A DNA stretch of 64,000 bases from Orbus hercynius (GTDB taxonomy: Bacteria; Pseudomonadota; Gammaproteobacteria; Enterobacterales; Orbaceae). A model generated the notes under the pieces. That model was not told the origin of the DNA and did not search any database. It was given only the letters and a program-made list of their open reading frames with translations. The translations under genes were made by a program, and so were the position numbers. The stretch lies in NCBI RefSeq assembly GCF_003634275.1, contig NZ_RBWY01000001.1, forward strand, positions 1,051,955 to 1,115,954, written 5' to 3'. Of the stretch, positions 1,617 to 50,023 are shown one piece after another (within the stretch, counting starts at the first letter, position 1; every line of letters begins with the position of its first letter).

Positions 1617-3455
1617 TTAATTGAATTCAATCACTTCTTGCTCATTATCTGTCATGATATTAAATAAAATATCTTTTAGATCTTCAATATTGGGGGAATA
1701 AAAAATATTGTTCTGGCCAGTACATTCAGCCCAGCGCTTAACATGTTTTTTATGCGCCCCTTTTGAAGCAAGCATAATAAAATAAATATTCACTTTTTTG
1801 GTATTTGGTGAATAAAGTTTATAACTATTAGGATCTTTGACTTTGTCACAAATCTGATATTTATCCATAAACACATCACGCATCTTTATATTACTATTAT
1901 CACCGCCGTCAGAAATTAAGATAATCGCTTTATTTTCTGATTTACCTTTAGTTATAACAGGAACTGCACGCATAAAACCTGACATTGATTCAGTCAAGCC
2001 GCCTGCCGATAAATCATCGATATCACTATCTTCAATGCCGCCCATATCCTCGTCATCTTGTTTATCCTCATCTTTTTCATCTTGATCGATCTCTTCATCA
2101 TCAATATCCTCATCGTCGTCATCGATAGGATCATCTGGCTCCATCGCATTTAAGTTGGATGATAATTCAATTAAATGAGTATGTATTTTAGCATTGGCAA
2201 ATGTTTTACGTTTTCCTTTAATCATACGGCACATTTTACGAAAAGGCCGATAGTAAGAGGCCGTTGATGTCCAAGCCATTGGAAAGGTTACCACAGCATG
2301 ATTTGATTCACCTTCAGGAATAAACAATCGATTGATGGTCGCTTGATAATCAATGGTAGAATCATTAGCAATATTACGATAGCGACCTTTAGCCGCTAGG
2401 CGACGAACTTCATACGCTGTTTTTAATTCATTTTTAAATAATGGATTAATGGTTTTATTCGTTAAATTTTGATAAGCCGTAATTCCATCAAATATCATTG
2501 CCAGAGGGGTTTGCGCATTATCATTACCATATTTATCGCTCAAACAACTATATTCATAGTTACCCGAAGCGTAATTCGCCTTGTTTTTATTGGTATAGCA
2601 ATAACTCTCGCGCGTATCTTCTAAGTCATTTTTATTCAGTGATGGGCTAACATAATGTTTGTAATAATAATAGCGGTAGCGATCGGCAAAATGGGCATTT
2701 TTCTCTAATTTTGAATAATTATTCGCTTTAACTAATGACCAATATTGATAATTAATCTGATATTTACTTTTTGGTACAAAGACAACAGAGCATCCATATA
2801 GTTCTCCCCCCCGCTCATTTTTACCTGCAAGTTTTGTTGGAACGCCATTACCATAAGGTACAATTGCAAAACGCGTATTTGGTGTTTTACTCCCTTCATT
2901 AACCAACTCTTTTAGTATCTCTTTTAACCGCTTAAGCTTTTTACCACGCATTGATGCAGACATATCAGTGACAAAGACATAATCACCATTAATTAACTTC
3001 GCTTTTTTTCGGCAGGCATCACTTTTGTAGCTCACATCTTCCACATCATCAAAGCTTGCTAACGCGCCAGAAGGTACAATGGTTGCAACAGAAGCGGTTG
3101 CTTGACCATCATAAGTCATACATCCATTACTACTTGTATAAGTCTTTACCGAGACATTTTTAAATTCTTTCGCTTGAGGTAAATAACCTTCTAAATAGAT
3201 TGTTAATAAAGCCTTATTTTTATCCTCATTAGTTTCCCCACGATTTGCAATGGTAATGATACCCTCGTTTATGGCATCAGCTAAACGTGCTTTTCGACCA
3301 ATTAATTGCATACTGTCAAAATAAAGCGCTAAGATAGCGAGCATAAATGGCAACAGCAAAGCAAAAATAATAACAACACTTCCACCACGCGCCAAAGTAA
3401 AACGTATTAATAGGTATTTTATAGAATTAAACAATCTCATTTTTCTCGCTCTCAT
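1617..3455 (-). CDS. TadG-like pilus-assembly protein with von Willebrand A domain
   Basis: About 612 residues. An N-terminal membrane segment (residues about 25-48, GGSVVIIFALLLPFMLAILALYF) has the Tad-type pseudopilin look. A vWA domain follows with the MIDAS-like VTDMSASM at about 164-171 and the later strand AIILISDGGDNSN. Between them, at roughly residues 440-490, is a very acidic stretch of nearly continuous Asp/Glu, unlike the neighbours. The end, FYSPNIEDLKDILFNI, is typical of TadG C-termini. It is third in a tadE-tadF-tadG row (gap of about 31 nt). The start could be TTG 3461, ATG 3455 or ATG 3440; none has a strong Shine-Dalgarno. No other tad gene is nearby. Confidence 0.8.
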   Translation of the reverse strand: MRARKMRLFNSIKYLLIRFTLARGGSVVIIFALLLPFMLAILALYFDSMQLIGRKARLADAINEGIITIANRGETNEDKNKALLTIYLEGYLPQAKEFKNVSVKTYTSSNGCMTYDGQATASVATIVPSGALASFDDVEDVSYKSDACRKKAKLINGDYVFVTDMSASMRGKKLKRLKEILKELVNEGSKTPNTRFAIVPYGNGVPTKLAGKNERGGELYGCSVVFVPKSKYQINYQYWSLVKANNYSKLEKNAHFADRYRYYYYKHYVSPSLNKNDLEDTRESYCYTNKNKANYASGNYEYSCLSDKYGNDNAQTPLAMIFDGITAYQNLTNKTINPLFKNELKTAYEVRRLAAKGRYRNIANDSTIDYQATINRLFIPEGESNHAVVTFPMAWTSTASYYRPFRKMCRMIKGKRKTFANAKIHTHLIELSSNLNAMEPDDPIDDDDEDIDDEEIDQDEKDEDKQDDEDMGGIEDSDIDDLSAGGLTESMSGFMRAVPVITKGKSENKAIILISDGGDNSNIKMRDVFMDKYQICDKVKDPNSYKLYSPNTKKVNIYFIMLASKGAHKKHVKRWAECTGQNNIFYSPNIEDLKDILFNIMTDNEQEVIEFN

Positions 3456-3486
3456 AGCCAAAATAGTAAAGCTATTTTCAGTTTAA

Positions 3487-4071
3487 TTAACGAATCATTC
3501 CTAGGCTTGAGGTTTGATACAGGCTAGGAAATAATGTATTGTCCAAAAAAGTAATCGGGATCAGATTGGTATTTTTAGCGCACAATGATAACCTTATAAT
3601 TGGAATCCAACCCTCTGCACTCCATGCGCTATAAAGATGTAATTCCTTAGTTGGCGGCAAATCAGAAAAGCATTCGCTATTGGGTAATTCTGTGTCTGTT
3701 TGTGAGATTAATTTAATCGTTTCTTTTATGATTCGATTATTTTCAGTACTTTTTTTATCGAAATATATTGCTTCAAGCTGAATTTGTAAGTGTTGACTTA
3801 AATTTTCGCCAAGCATTTGTTTCGTCGCAAGAAGTAGTTCATTAACCTCATTTTGATCAATCTTTTTAAGGCTATTGCCGTATAATTTTGTTCTTTCACG
3901 CATTAAAGTGAAAGATGAGTAATTTACTCGCTCGAGTTTATTATGTTGTAAAATAGCTATACCGATATTGGCTGAAAAGTAAATAATGACAAAAAAACAG
4001 AGGCACACAATGGCAAATTCGATAGACATCGAACCATTTTTTTCACGGAAAATACTTATTAGATTCATCAT
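3487..4071 (-). CDS. TadE/TadF-like minor pseudopilin
   Basis: 194 residues. The N-terminus has a short basic head (FREKNG) followed by SMSIEFAIVCLCFFVIIYFSANIGIAILQ, one hydrophobic helix with the conserved Glu of TadE/F pseudopilins. The rest is a periplasmic domain with Cys residues near the middle and end (ECFSDL, SLCAKN). It sits between the tadE-like gene (35-nt gap) and the tadG-like gene, all on the minus strand, so they are probably one transcript. In Tad systems such proteins are minor pilins of Flp pili; no Flp pilin or secretion ATPase is in this window, so whether it works in pilus assembly here is open. Confidence 0.75.
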   Translation of the reverse strand: MMNLISIFREKNGSMSIEFAIVCLCFFVIIYFSANIGIAILQHNKLERVNYSSFTLMRERTKLYGNSLKKIDQNEVNELLLATKQMLGENLSQHLQIQLEAIYFDKKSTENNRIIKETIKLISQTDTELPNSECFSDLPPTKELHLYSAWSAEGWIPIIRLSLCAKNTNLIPITFLDNTLFPSLYQTSSLGMIR

Positions 4072-42189: not shown

Positions 42190-42217
42190 AAAAAAACCCG
42201 CTGCAAGCAGCGGATTT
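42190..42217 (-). terminator. Terminator of the cold-shock gene
   Basis: CCGCTGC (42198-42204) pairs with GCAGCGG (42207-42213). On the minus strand it is followed by GTTTTTTTTATC. It begins about 24 nt after the stop codon. Confidence 0.85.
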
Positions 42218-42236
42218 TCTCATCAAAGCGGTTTAT

Positions 42237-42446
42237 TTATAGTACAACAACTTCAGCAGCTGCTGGACCACGCGGGCTGTCTTGAATAGCAAACTCGACC
42301 TTTTGCCCTTCTGCTAATGTTTTGAACCCGTCTCCAGTGATTGCTGAAAAGTGAACAAACACATCTTTACTACCATCTGTTGGAGTGATAAAACCAAAAC
42401 CTTTACTTTCGTTGAACCATTTTACTTGGCCAGTTTTCTTAGTCAT
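42237..42446 (-). CDS. Cold-shock protein, CspA family
   Basis: 69 residues, the usual family length. Single OB-fold RNA chaperone: [17 protein letters not shown] carries RNP1 (KGFGFI), DVFVHFSAI carries RNP2, and the tail reads [20 protein letters not shown]. The frame is open upstream to 42515 but the family starts at [12 protein letters not shown], so ATG 42446 is chosen. A long untranslated leader (see promoter) is typical of cold-inducible csp genes. Which E. coli Csp it corresponds to cannot be decided. Confidence 0.95.
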
Positions 42447-42686
42447 TATTAAGTTTCCTGCTAAAATTAATTTCTTGCCTACTGAGGCTGTTTTTAAGAC
42501 TACTACAACAGCCAACTGAGTAAAACATAAGAAACCAATGAAAAATACATTTACAATCTTAATGCTAAAACAAAGTTCGTGCTGCGCAATTAATCTTCGT
42601 TATTATTACCTCATATATTGTAAAGATAATCAAGCAAATAATCATGATTTTGGTAACTGAGTTCACAATTTTTTTATCTAGTCTTT

Positions 42687-46390: not shown

Positions 46391-46480
46391 TTACTTTACG
46401 CTATACATCGCTTGTAAATGATTTTTTTTGTCTTTTTTGGTTTTGATTAGTTTGATTAAATTTTTATGTGGAGTTCTCAT
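46391..46480 (-). CDS. Small basic ORF of 29 codons with strong ribosome binding site
   Basis: Translated MRTPHKNLIKLIKTKKDKKN plus HLQAMYSVK, 29 residues, strongly basic (about ten Lys/Arg), with no membrane segment. AAGGAG at 46487-46492 is six bases before the ATG, one of the best ribosome binding sites in the window. It is flanked by terminators: that of mgtA (46584-46606) upstream and the bidirectional hairpin at 46331-46350 downstream, so it would be its own transcription unit. I do not recognise the product. It may be a small RNA- or ribosome-binding protein, or a chance ORF. Confidence 0.5.
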   Translation of the reverse strand: MRTPHKNLIKLIKTKKDKKNHLQAMYSVK

Positions 46481-46616: not shown

Positions 46617-49313
46617 TTAAAACCATTGCCCAAATCGTTTGATATAAATTGTTTTCATCAACTGTGCAACAAGGCAGTAGCAAACTAATGTGCCAACTAA
46701 CCAAGGGAAATATGACCATGGTAACGGCTCAAGTCCAACTAATGCACCAAATGGTGAGAACGGAATATAAATACCCACAGCCATAATTAGAATCGTCATA
46801 ACAATAACAGGGAATGCGGCTGTACTTTGGATAAATGGTATTTTTTGTGTTCTTAACATATGTACAACTAATGTTTGTGATAATAAACCTTCAATGAACC
46901 AACCTGAATGGAATAGTGACTGTGCTTCTAGGTTATTTGCAGAGAAGACGAACCACATTAGCGCATACGTTGTAATATCAAAAATAGACGATGTCGGCCC
47001 AATCCAAACCATAAATCGGCCTATATTTGGTGCATTCCATTTTCTTGGTTTTTGTAAAAACTCCTCATCCATTTTATCCCAAGGTAAAGAAAGCTGTGAA
47101 ATATCATATAACAAGTTTTGAATTAGCAAATGAATGGCCAGCATTGGTAAGAATGGAATGAACGCACTAGCGACTAATACTGAAAACACATTACCAAAGT
47201 TCGAACTGGCCGTCATATTTAAGTATTTCATGATGTTACCAAAAGTTTCACGACCGCGAATCACCCCTTCTTCGAGCACCATTAAACTCTTCTCAAGTAA
47301 AATAATATCCGCTGATTCTTTCGCAATATCGGTTGCTGTATCAACCGATATTCCAACATCTGAATCACGTAATGCGGGTGCATCGTTAATTCCATCACCT
47401 AAGAAACCAACAGTATGACCATTATCTTGAAGTAATCGGATGATTCGTGATTTTTGTAATGGTGTCAACTTAGCAAAAATAGTGCGCATTTCCACTTGCT
47501 CTTTTAACTGCTCATCACTCATATCTTCGATTTCAGTGCCTAAAAGTGGCTGCCCCGGTTCAAGTCCAACCTCGCGGCAGATTTTGGTGGTAATAATTTC
47601 ATTATCGCCAGTAAGAACTTTAACCGCAACACCGTGCTCACTTAATGCACTGATGGCTTCACGAGCACTCTCTTTTGGTGGATCTAAGAAAGTTAAAAAA
47701 CCCCGAATTGCTAAAGCAGATTCATCAGCAACGCTGTATTGTGTTTTCGTTTCGCTAGCAGGGATATCTTTTAATCCAACCGCAAGTACCCTAAATCCAT
47801 CTTGGTTATATTGATATGCAAGTTCAATGAGTTGCTGTTTTCGTTCTTCTGTTAACGCAATGTATTCACCATCTTCATAAACATAAGAAGCAATTGATAA
47901 CATTTCCTCAACAGCGCCTTTACAAATCATTAGATGATTATCGTTACCATTTTGTACAACTACAGATAAACGACGGCGGATAAAATCAAAGGGTAATTCA
48001 TCGATCTTATTATATTGGCCAATACCGAGTTTACGAACGTTAGATTTTTGCTCAGCAAAATGAATAATTGCTTTATCCATTAGATTTTTCATGCCACTTT
48101 GGTAATGGCTATTAATCCAGGCAAGCTTTAATACCGATGGATCAACTTTACCTTTGATATCAAGATGTTGCTCTAAAATAATCCGATCTTGCGTTAGGGT
48201 TCCTGTTTTATCAGTACAAAGCACATCCATCGCACCAAAGTTCTGAATCGCATTTAATCGTTTAACAACAACTTTACGTTTAGCCATCCCAACCGCGCCT
48301 TTGGCTAAATTAGCACTAACAATCATTGGTAACATTTCTGGCGTTAATCCAACAGCAACGGCTAATGCAAACAGCGTTGCCTCGCCCCAATCACCTTTGG
48401 TTAAACCATTAATAAGCAGTACAATTGGTACCATAATTAACATAAAACGAATGAGTAACCAGCTAACGCTGTTAACACCTTTGTCAAATGACGTTTGTGA
48501 TCGCGTACCAATAATTGATTTGGCTAATGAACCAAAATAAGTATCAGCACCTGTTGCTACAACGACCGCTTTAGCTGTGCCACTTACAATATTTGTGCCC
48601 ATAAAACAGATGTTATTGGTATCTAATACATTCGATGATTCACTGCTATTTTCAGTTGAATTCTCACTTTTTTGTGATACCGCACCTAAAGTGTCATATT
48701 TTTCCACCGGAATTGATTCACCGGTTAATACGGCTTGACTGACAAATAAATCACGAGACTCGATAATTCGCACATCAGCAGGAATCATATCACCAGCAGA
48801 AAGAAAAATAATATCACCCGGTACAACTTCATCAAGCGGAACCTCCATTCGTTCAGAAGACATATTCTTATGAGGTCGGCGTGATACAGTCGCGGTTGTT
48901 TTTATCATCGATTTCAACGCTTCTGCTGCTTTATTCGATCGGTATTCTTGCCAAAAACGTAATAATCCACTTAACGTCACCATGACAAGGATAATAACAA
49001 CCCCCGTCAAATCAGTCTCTTCCCCACTTTCAAGAGGTAACCAATAATCAGTGAAAAAGCTAACTGCAGCTAATATGAGTAATACAAAAATAAATGGATT
49101 ATTAAATGCTATTAGTAACTGTACGAATGCTGATGGTACTTTTTCTCTTGCAACTTCATTTTTGCCATAACGCTCAATTCGAGATTTAGCATCAGCAGTA
49201 GTGAGTCCGGATAAATTCGATTGTAGATTTGCGAGCGTACCATCAAGGCTGTTTTTAGACTCAAGGAGCGCTTTAACGCGAGTATTATTTTTCGCTTTAA
49301 CTTGTTGTTTCAT
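46617..49313 (-). CDS. mgtA: Magnesium-translocating P-type ATPase
   Basis: 898 residues, the E. coli MgtA length. Mg2+ importer of the inner membrane. P-type landmarks: LTGESIPVEKYD, the phosphorylation motif VLCTDKTGTLTQDRI, KGAVEEML, GFLTFLDPPKESAREAI, VLTGDNEIITTKICREVG, GFLGDGINDAPALRDSDVGISVDTATDIAKESADIILLEKSL, and the MgtA-type helix ending FGNVFSVLVASAFIPFLPM. It is preceded by a long leader with its own promoter and small ORF, which suggests Mg2+- or translation-controlled elongation as known for enterobacterial mgtA. Confidence 0.97.
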   Translation of the reverse strand: MKQQVKAKNNTRVKALLESKNSLDGTLANLQSNLSGLTTADAKSRIERYGKNEVAREKVPSAFVQLLIAFNNPFIFVLLILAAVSFFTDYWLPLESGEETDLTGVVIILVMVTLSGLLRFWQEYRSNKAAEALKSMIKTTATVSRRPHKNMSSERMEVPLDEVVPGDIIFLSAGDMIPADVRIIESRDLFVSQAVLTGESIPVEKYDTLGAVSQKSENSTENSSESSNVLDTNNICFMGTNIVSGTAKAVVVATGADTYFGSLAKSIIGTRSQTSFDKGVNSVSWLLIRFMLIMVPIVLLINGLTKGDWGEATLFALAVAVGLTPEMLPMIVSANLAKGAVGMAKRKVVVKRLNAIQNFGAMDVLCTDKTGTLTQDRIILEQHLDIKGKVDPSVLKLAWINSHYQSGMKNLMDKAIIHFAEQKSNVRKLGIGQYNKIDELPFDFIRRRLSVVVQNGNDNHLMICKGAVEEMLSIASYVYEDGEYIALTEERKQQLIELAYQYNQDGFRVLAVGLKDIPASETKTQYSVADESALAIRGFLTFLDPPKESAREAISALSEHGVAVKVLTGDNEIITTKICREVGLEPGQPLLGTEIEDMSDEQLKEQVEMRTIFAKLTPLQKSRIIRLLQDNGHTVGFLGDGINDAPALRDSDVGISVDTATDIAKESADIILLEKSLMVLEEGVIRGRETFGNIMKYLNMTASSNFGNVFSVLVASAFIPFLPMLAIHLLIQNLLYDISQLSLPWDKMDEEFLQKPRKWNAPNIGRFMVWIGPTSSIFDITTYALMWFVFSANNLEAQSLFHSGWFIEGLLSQTLVVHMLRTQKIPFIQSTAAFPVIVMTILIMAVGIYIPFSPFGALVGLEPLPWSYFPWLVGTLVCYCLVAQLMKTIYIKRFGQWF

Positions 49314-49920
49314 AGTTTATACCTAATTTTCTATTCAAATATATTGCCACTAAAAAAATAGCAGATACTTAAATTCATTAGTTATGTGTAAATTAGATCA
49401 TCAGTTTATTTAAACTGATAACAGTAATGTTCACAGACAATAACTAATAATGATAAAATAATCGCTATATTTGAAAATAACCTACGAGCTAGCCGATCAA
49501 AACTGACTAGTTAATAACGTATTAAAATTTTCAATATAGAATATAAGAGTATTAGATATAACTTGGTGGTTCTAATAGTTGATTAGAATAACATGAAGAA
49601 TACAACACAAAATGTGATGCAATTAAATGATTGAGATGTGTTTGATAGCGTTTTAATAAATTGAATTGCATATCGTTCACCGTTACCGATTTTTCATTTG
49701 CCGGCAGTGAACTGAAAAAATAGATTATTTAGACAAGTTCATTAACCGATAATAATGATGCATTTAAAACTTACCCCCAAATAATTCGCGGGGGGACCCG
49801 ATTGAGTATCCATATAGCTCCTGTAAATTGAACTCAAATTACCTTCAATGATTTTTGGTTTTTTTAATCTGTACAAATAGTTAAAATTTATGTAAAGAAT
49901 ACGTGAAAACCCTAAAAGGC
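49314..49920 (-). promoter_or_regulatory. Long 5' leader of mgtA
   Basis: From the predicted start (about 49920) to the mgtA ATG is about 600 nt, twice the length of the E. coli mgtA leader. It contains a 23-codon ORF with Shine-Dalgarno (49742-49813), a C5/G5 hairpin inside that ORF (49774-49778 with 49790-49795), and a further stem with outer arms GTTCAC/GTGAAC (49678-49713 region). The last 350 nt are AT-rich without obvious structure. This is a candidate attenuator or Mg2+-responsive leader; the mechanism is inferred by analogy. Confidence 0.55.
49742..49813 (-). CDS. Putative mgtA leader peptide (23 residues)
   Basis: MDTQSGPPANYLGVSFKCII plus IIG. CAGGAG (49823-49818) is four bases before the ATG. 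Codons 7 and 8 are CCC CCC (Pro-Pro), located in the C-rich/G-rich hairpin of the leader. Salmonella and E. coli mgtA leaders encode the Pro-rich MgtL, whose translation speed sets the fate of the transcript; this ORF is in the matching place but shares no sequence with MgtL beyond prolines. A longer in-frame reading from 49927 starts upstream of the predicted transcription start and is rejected. Confidence 0.5.
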   Translation of the reverse strand: MDTQSGPPANYLGVSFKCIIIIG

Positions 49921-49926
49921 GCGCCA

Positions 49927-49956
49927 TTTATACCTTTTTTATTAATGCGTTGTCAA
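49927..49956 (-). promoter_or_regulatory. Promoter of the mgtA leader transcript
   Basis: Perfect -35 TTGACA (49956-49951), 18-bp spacer, -10 TATAAA (49932-49927) on the minus strand. It is the best sigma-70 match in this part of the window. No clear PhoP box was found upstream. Confidence 0.75.
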
Positions 49957-50023
49957 CCTTATTTTCGTATGATTACAAAAAACAGGATATTGATAACTTA
50001 ATGAGTAAGTTAAACGGTAAAAT

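Follow-up and report, generated by a model that had tools for sequence, protein, structure and literature searches.

The mgtA gene and its long leader

The 64,000-nt stretch of DNA analysed here (the window) carries on its reverse strand a gene for an Mg-translocating P-type ATPase of 898 amino acids (mgtA, positions 46617–49313), identified by matches to TIGR01524 and NF011702. Among the named matches listed, those nearest to this mgtA were 22 Gilliamella loci and one from an Orbaceae bacterium (L003–L025, 79–84% identity), and the window was therefore assigned to the Orbaceae, whose members live in insect guts, as a relative of Gilliamella. The gene upstream of the leader is rsmC, and all window features described below lie on the reverse strand. 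The mgtA ATG begins at 49313 and is preceded by a leader of about 600 nt, the length that an earlier note on this DNA had given. The strong −35/−10 pair that the same note had placed at 49956–49927 was also found: the promoter reads TTGACA-18-TATAAA and is followed by a GC-rich start region, and boxes of similar form, together with the GC-rich start region, are kept across 41 aligned leaders of the family. G005 is an exception, with promoter-like boxes that lie closer to the first reading frame of the leader. A consensus promoter scan misses TTGACA-18-TATAAA because it requires T as the final base of the −10 box.

Between the promoter and mgtA lie two short ORFs, ORF1 and ORF2, and after the second an A+U-rich spacer (49314–49551) ends in the mgtA Shine–Dalgarno (SD) sequence, AGGT. 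The distance from ORF2 to the mgtA start ranges from 144 to 316 nt in the family leaders. In one genome (G005, reverse strand of locus L121), a possible third leader ORF was noticed by eye in this spacer, with GGGAGA followed by ATG GAC GAC GGG CCC (MDDGPSQSL...). Likewise by eye, Gilliamella leaders (e.g. L003 and L011) display a 5′ hairpin between the promoter and ORF1, CTTTTCTTA...TAAGAAAAG, for which some species have CTTTTCTTC...GAAGGGAAG instead, apparently by covariation; it was not seen in G005.

On the 3′ side of mgtA, a small basic ORF with a good SD sequence was found at 46480–46391 (MRTPHKNLIKLIKTKKDKKNHLQAMYSVK), which is present in 39 of the 44 family genomes and in Gilliamella takes the form MKTPHKNLIxLIKxRKQKKAQ. 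The peptide is lysine-rich and, judged by eye, not evidently membrane-bound. Scanning two of these peptides against Pfam and NCBIfam yielded no family, and the single chance-level Pfam match (E 0.12) fell below the cut-off. Further along the window, a cspA thermoregulator RNA element was detected above the Rfam gathering score at 42190–42591.

Two short reading frames in the leader

Leaders were extracted from the 41 mgtA loci of the family with a pattern that required AGGAG, a degenerate ORF1 start and a second ORF bearing EPP, and all 41 passed; the named loci L003–L025 were kept apart from these counts. ORF1 (MDTQSGPPANYLGVSFKCIIIIG) occupies 49813–49742 in the window and comprises 23 codons, of which codons 1–8 are the conserved part, with AGGAG at 49822–49818, ATG at 49813 and TAA at 49744–49742, as the earlier note had described it. 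Its SD and ATG are present in 41/41 leaders, a count to be read with the extraction pattern itself in mind, since that pattern required AGGAG and a degenerate start. The N-terminus reads M[D/N][T/A/S][Q/H]S, with Asp2 in 40 of the 41 leaders and Ser at codon 5 in every one, and codon 8 is CCC throughout, without any synonymous change. The leader peptide was thus correctly regarded as unlike MgtL: the form M[D/N][T/A/S][Q/H]S..P has no EPDP start.

A hairpin formed by a C-run and a G-run lies within ORF1 (49774–49795), where C6 at 49795–49790 can pair with G5 at 49778–49774. Scored by the presence of the runs and not by covariation, a C-run of 3–6 followed by a G-run of 4–6 was found in all 41 leaders, with a loop of 6–11 nt (24 nt in one). 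The tandem CCC codons that had been placed in this hairpin are indeed there in the window, but CCC CCC at codons 7–8 occurs in only 3/41 leaders. Past the hairpin the reading frame is lost, and ORF1 ends in differing frames, its stop lying 27–33 nt ahead of a GTTCAC motif (see below) in 32/41 leaders and 10–15 nt ahead of it in 9/41. The alignment suggested in the earlier note therefore upheld the start, the SD and one CCC codon of the small ORF, and not the Pro-Pro pair or the frame beyond the hairpin. The pN/pS ratio was 0.61 for codons 2–8 and 0.53 for codons 9–21 of the 21-amino-acid forms, with 1.3–2.1 in the other frames. Judged by this comparison, with the frame past the two runs not kept, it is the start and a structure that are conserved in ORF1, and the peptide more weakly.

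ORF2 (MQFNLLKRYQTHLNHLIASHFVLYSSCYSNQLLEPPSYI, 39 amino acids, 49671–49552) was found by motif search and family comparison. Its ATG at 49671 lies 2 nt past GGTGAACG (region d, below), an element that ends 2 nt ahead of the ORF2 start in 41/41 leaders, and an SD-like GGTGA ends 5 nt ahead of the ATG. The length varies from 28 to 40 amino acids (37 in 33/41) and the N-terminal part diverges, but the end is conserved: in the window a LEPPS motif (49575–49561) stands right before the stop, EPP is present in 41/41 ORF2 sequences, followed by S or G, two or three further residues and the stop, and LEPP in 40/41. The residues after EPP are SCI in 36/41 and otherwise SYI, SSI, SYF, SCL or GITL, directly followed by the stop. 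EPP begins at residue 32 or later in 38/41 sequences, and at 31, 26 and 22 in the remaining three.

The codons of this motif vary freely across the 41 leaders, with GAA (30) or GAG (11) for Glu, CCA (33), CCC (5) or CCG (3) for the first Pro, and CCG (20), CCA (12), CCT (8) or CCC (1) for the second; among 12 representative leaders, EPP was found in 12/12 in seven codon combinations. For the 26 distinct 37-codon sequences, which stem from 33 of the 41 genomes, pN/pS was 0.34 in frame versus 0.85 and 2.32 when read out of frame, and it dropped to 0.02 in the final nine codons. The synonymous-only variation of EPP and the frame-specific pN/pS indicate, at the level of sequence comparison, that selection is acting on the end of the ORF2 peptide that adjoins the stop codon, as would be expected of a regulatory nascent chain. 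Scans of two ORF2 peptides and one ORF1 peptide against Pfam and NCBIfam were negative at E up to 1. TnaC is a leader peptide on which the ribosome stalls at the stop codon; by description only, ORF2 is similar in that its conserved residues also adjoin the stop, while TnaC is a Trp sensor and Rho-dependent.

The earlier note had treated the Pro-Pro pair of ORF1 as the MgtL-like element, a role that its occurrence in 3/41 leaders does not bear out; the conserved Pro-Pro sits in ORF2 instead. Its expectation that the extra leader length would hold a second element was nevertheless sound, since this length contains both ORF2 and a potential hairpin over the ORF2 SD, neither of which it had noticed.

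Possible competing pairings and distribution of the leader

Four segments around the two ORFs may pair in competing ways. The ORF1 SD, ACAGGAG (49818–49824), contributes ACAGG as the first segment (SD1). The second, region b (TGAACTTGTCT, 49731–49741), lies directly 3′ of the ORF1 stop and may pair with SD1 or with region c; the switch segment within it is TGAACCTGT in most leaders and TGAACTTGT in the window. Region c (CAGTTCAC, 49707–49714), in which GTTCAC is present in 41/41 leaders, may pair with b or with d. Region d (GGTGAACG, 49681–49674, found in 41/41 leaders) contains the ORF2 SD and, together with CGG at 49688–49686, makes up the 3′ side (49674–49688) of a potential sequestering hairpin, the 5′ side of which lies within 49712–49702. 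Nucleotide conservation is strong around b, c and d. In 38/41 leaders, six consecutive T also separate b and c (49721–49712 in the window), maybe as a binding site or as a spacer in the b:c loop.

The pairing statistics, which ignore kinship among the sequences, differ between the three helices. For c:d, six pairs are invariant in 30 distinct sequences and the inner helix has 87.5% of its cells paired; because the six pairs never vary, they give no covariation evidence. The b:c helix pairs in 96.2% of 209 cells, with 16–43% for slid controls, and its mean duplex energy of −4.9, versus −1.5 for permuted c, was equalled by 2/300 permutations; it contains just one double compensatory change, which was matched by 54/500 shuffles of the 3′ letters. 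SD1:b pairs in 98.9% of 185 cells (slid controls 3–58%), with changes confined to one side and a duplex energy that was matched by 7% of permutations, and in the window the SD1 and b segments pair best through GTTCA and TGAAC instead of ACAGG and CTTGT. In RNAalifold, the core displayed zero double changes among 19 pairs. The compensatory changes that the earlier note had proposed to look for are thus represented by the single one in b:c, with none in the RNAalifold core and an invariant c:d.

Local folding selected c:d as the minimum-energy choice in 32/41 leaders and not in 9/41; when d was blocked, c paired upstream in 32/41 and not in 9/41. The 174-nt core was not more stable than its shuffles (z +0.40). 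The 9/41 leaders in which the ORF1 stop lies 10–15 nt before GTTCAC fit a switch less well, since a terminating ribosome could there also touch c. Comparison across the family thus establishes both ORFs and the conserved ORF2 end, together with the co-occurrence with mgtA described next, and points to competing pairings that may form.

To follow the leader, an 89-position model (R1) was derived from the b-c-d part of 30 of the leader sequences. The mgtA gene is present in 41/44 family genomes, and R1 found one strong copy in exactly those 41; G002, G004 and G008 are without both. The old mgtA site was read in the latter two, where R1 finds no leader and the small ORF downstream of mgtA has survived the loss of the gene: in G004 (L158, 3336–3850) the last mgtA codons and the small ORF are still present next to a tRNA-Val gene, and in G008 (L159, reverse strand 3100–3900) rsmC and the small ORF remain, mgtA and its leader being gone. 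A weak second R1 match in G019 (E 0.04) was taken as chance, no leader ORFs being seen on reading. Against 394 genomes of the order, the family included, R1 matched 33, namely 32 of the family and G363 (E 0.002); the G363 match lies inside a coding gene, presumably for an H-NS-like protein, and was taken as chance. Among 369 genomes of the class, the only match was the window's own, and none was obtained in 57 mgtA loci from outside the Orbaceae, where L083 served as the positive control. Because the filters were stricter in the searches of many genomes, weak relatives may be missed.

A profile of ORF2 matched 45 of the 394 order genomes at E up to 0.05, comprising 31 of the family at E at most 1.2e-14 and 14 weak matches (E 0.005–0.05) outside it; its sensitivity is limited, as it missed G005, whose leader has ORF2. 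The 1200 nt upstream of each of the 57 mgtA loci from outside the family contained assorted Pro-Pro frames, none of them ORF2-like. A recurrent ALE(L/P)(D/E)APP-stop frame (15 Pseudomonas matches) was discounted as a leader peptide, since inspection by eye showed no start codon (ATG, GTG or TTG) in frame. The leader had no match in Rfam 15 at the gathering score; at E up to 10 there were chance-level matches only (best E 3.6). In the open-licence PMC literature, no paper was found that deals with Gilliamella together with mgtA and magnesium, or with riboswitches in Orbaceae, and among the titles listed for the wider leader-peptide literature none concerned Orbaceae.

A candidate serial attenuator of mgtA

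In enteric bacteria, genes for Mg2+ transporters are repeatedly under the control of tiny ORFs (mgtL, mgtM, mgtP, mgtQ, corL). Salmonella mgtQ is an 8-amino-acid ORF between mgtC and mgtB, in which control of the mgtB SD depends on Asp2, on a CCC codon within stem 1 and on whether 1:2/3:4 or 2:3 pairing forms, as supported by reporter mutants (PMC8092293). The Orbaceae leader has the same Asp2 and a CCC that can lie in a stem, its next ORF has an SD that may be hidden by a 3:4-type hairpin and freed by a 2:3-type one, and it too precedes a gene for an Mg2+ P-type ATPase. It differs from mgtQ, which frees the mgtB SD itself, in that the SD to be hidden would belong to a second leader ORF, and in that ORF1 has Ser5 in 41/41 leaders where mgtQ has acidic codons at both 2 and 5 (PMC8092293); its sequence and its place are also different, the upstream gene in the window being rsmC, not mgtC.

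The mgtCBR leader contains the tandem ORFs mgtM and mgtP, which are reported to act independently, sensing ATP and proline, the latter through three consecutive Pro codons among the 17 codons of mgtP (PMC3641672). Two short ORFs, one with Pro codons, in a long leader of an Mg2+ transporter are common to both systems, as may be alternative stems, and no intrinsic terminator is described for mgtCBR either. In contrast to the independence of mgtM and mgtP, ORF1 here appears to gate ORF2, and unlike mgtP, ORF2 has two consecutive Pro codons, within an EPP at the end of 28–40 codons (PMC3641672). With MgtL the Orbaceae system shares a small ORF in the mgtA leader and the presence of acidic and Pro residues (PMC6460261, PMC11282234, PMC11552253). 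The MgtL leader is nevertheless 264 nt long, with one ORF and an EPDP start, as against about 600 nt, two ORFs and no EPDP start, and the present leader stands apart from the MgtL type also in having no Rfam match and in the lack of PhoQ_Sensor matches in the family (see below). MgtL is described as acting through drop-off induced by acidic and Pro residues, with Rho in Salmonella (PMC11282234, PMC11552253, PMC6460261), and for E. coli mgtA one of these papers reports no evidence of Rho (PMC11552253).

Termination of the leader transcript, the outcome proposed in the earlier note, found no support: a simple scan (loops of 3–8 nt only) detected no terminator-like site on the leader strand of the window leader, and the ORF2-to-mgtA spacers displayed no clear rut-like bias of C over G (C 0.10–0.15, G 0.11–0.18). 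The PhoQ sensor domain (PhoQ_Sensor, PF08918) was found in 0/44 family genomes, with the E. coli control detected (1/14 controls); the family may have a divergent sensor kinase or an unrelated sensor.

In the reading that we favour and regard as somewhat probable, the Orbaceae leader of about 600 nt attenuates mgtA serially, through two peptides. For this we infer that both ORFs are translated, that mgtA responds to an Mg2+ signal, that each step runs in the direction given here and that ORF2 is linked to mgtA; sensing of Mg2+ is suggested by the gene downstream, mgtA. In the resting state, the ORF1 SD would pair with b, and c with d, so that the ORF2 SD would be hidden. A ribosome slowed or lost early in ORF1, at Asp2 and the C-run/G-run hairpin, would occupy the SD1 region and free b, which could then pair with c and open the ORF2 SD, while a ribosome that reaches the ORF1 stop would cover b, allowing c:d to close ORF2. 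Once open, ORF2 would be translated as far as its EPP(S/G) end, at which Pro-Pro may slow the ribosome, and occupancy of this end would set mgtA expression by keeping the RNA 3′ of ORF2 translatable or protected. The likely signal is low Mg2+, which weakens ribosomes. Counting against such an attenuator, ORF1 has neither the EPDP of MgtL nor the Glu5 of mgtQ. Moreover, the EPP of ORF2 fits an EttA-type dependence poorly, since it starts at residue 32 or later in 38/41 leaders and acidic residues are reported to matter for this dependence within the first 30 residues (PMC11282234).

A single-peptide attenuator, in which the Pro codons of ORF1 alone would set mgtA expression in the manner of MgtL, could draw on the 41/41 leaders that retain the ORF1 start, its SD and one of its CCC codons, and on the Pro codons of MgtL at positions 3, 5, 7 and 9 (PMC6460261); with Pro-Pro of ORF1 in 3/41, a CCC that can sit in a hairpin and never changes synonymously, and the stronger peptide-level selection on ORF2, it is considered quite unlikely. 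About as improbable appears a sensing step that is specific to this codon, in which the ORF1 CCC would read tRNA-Pro m1G37 (TrmD needs Mg2+) and ORF1 would be slowed at low Mg2+. A model of this kind is published for Salmonella mgtL (PMC6335274), and the 41/41 conservation of CCC in ORF1, while ORF2 uses CCA, CCG and CCT freely, is what it would predict. The C-run/G-run stem could, however, account for the same constraint: the frame after the stem is not kept, and a silent CCC-to-CCG change in mgtQ indicated that the stem, not Pro, was important (PMC8092293). On this analysis, the invariant CCC may be constrained by the stem rather than by proline.

The in-frame purifying selection on ORF2 would also suit a small protein that acts in trans on MgtA or elsewhere, like the small regulatory peptides of Mg2+ transporters, instead of a cis-acting leader peptide. 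This is considered unlikely, as ORF2 varies between 28 and 40 amino acids with a diverging N-terminal part, its conservation is concentrated right before the stop, and an invariant potential hairpin adjoining ORF1 contains its SD. Least probable of all is an RNA-only Mg2+ riboswitch to which the ORFs are incidental: although the nucleotides around b, c and d are strongly conserved and the full leader is more stable than 20 shuffles (z −3.28), EPP varies synonymously only, pN/pS is frame-specific, no Rfam family was matched, and the core is no more stable than its shuffles.

Returning to the serial attenuator, mgtQ-type wiring and tandem leader ORFs are already known, and what would be new is an mgtA leader with two ORFs in which the first gates the second. 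A bolder form of it, which is possible but doubtful, is a two-stage relay. In it, ORF1 would gate the ORF2 SD and not the transporter, mgtA expression would be set by EPP(S/G) as a new motif for nascent-chain arrest, and, given that no PhoQ sensor domain was found, the family would sense Mg2+ for mgtA mainly or exclusively through this relay. The EPPS/G end beside the stop and the three RNA segments offer defined targets for simple reporters. If the attenuator is true, ribosome-based Mg2+ sensing arose or was rewired more than once, here in a family in which no PhoQ sensor domain was found, and such leaders can be chained. The rule would moreover cover an ecologically important group, since Gilliamella is a core symbiont of the bee gut.
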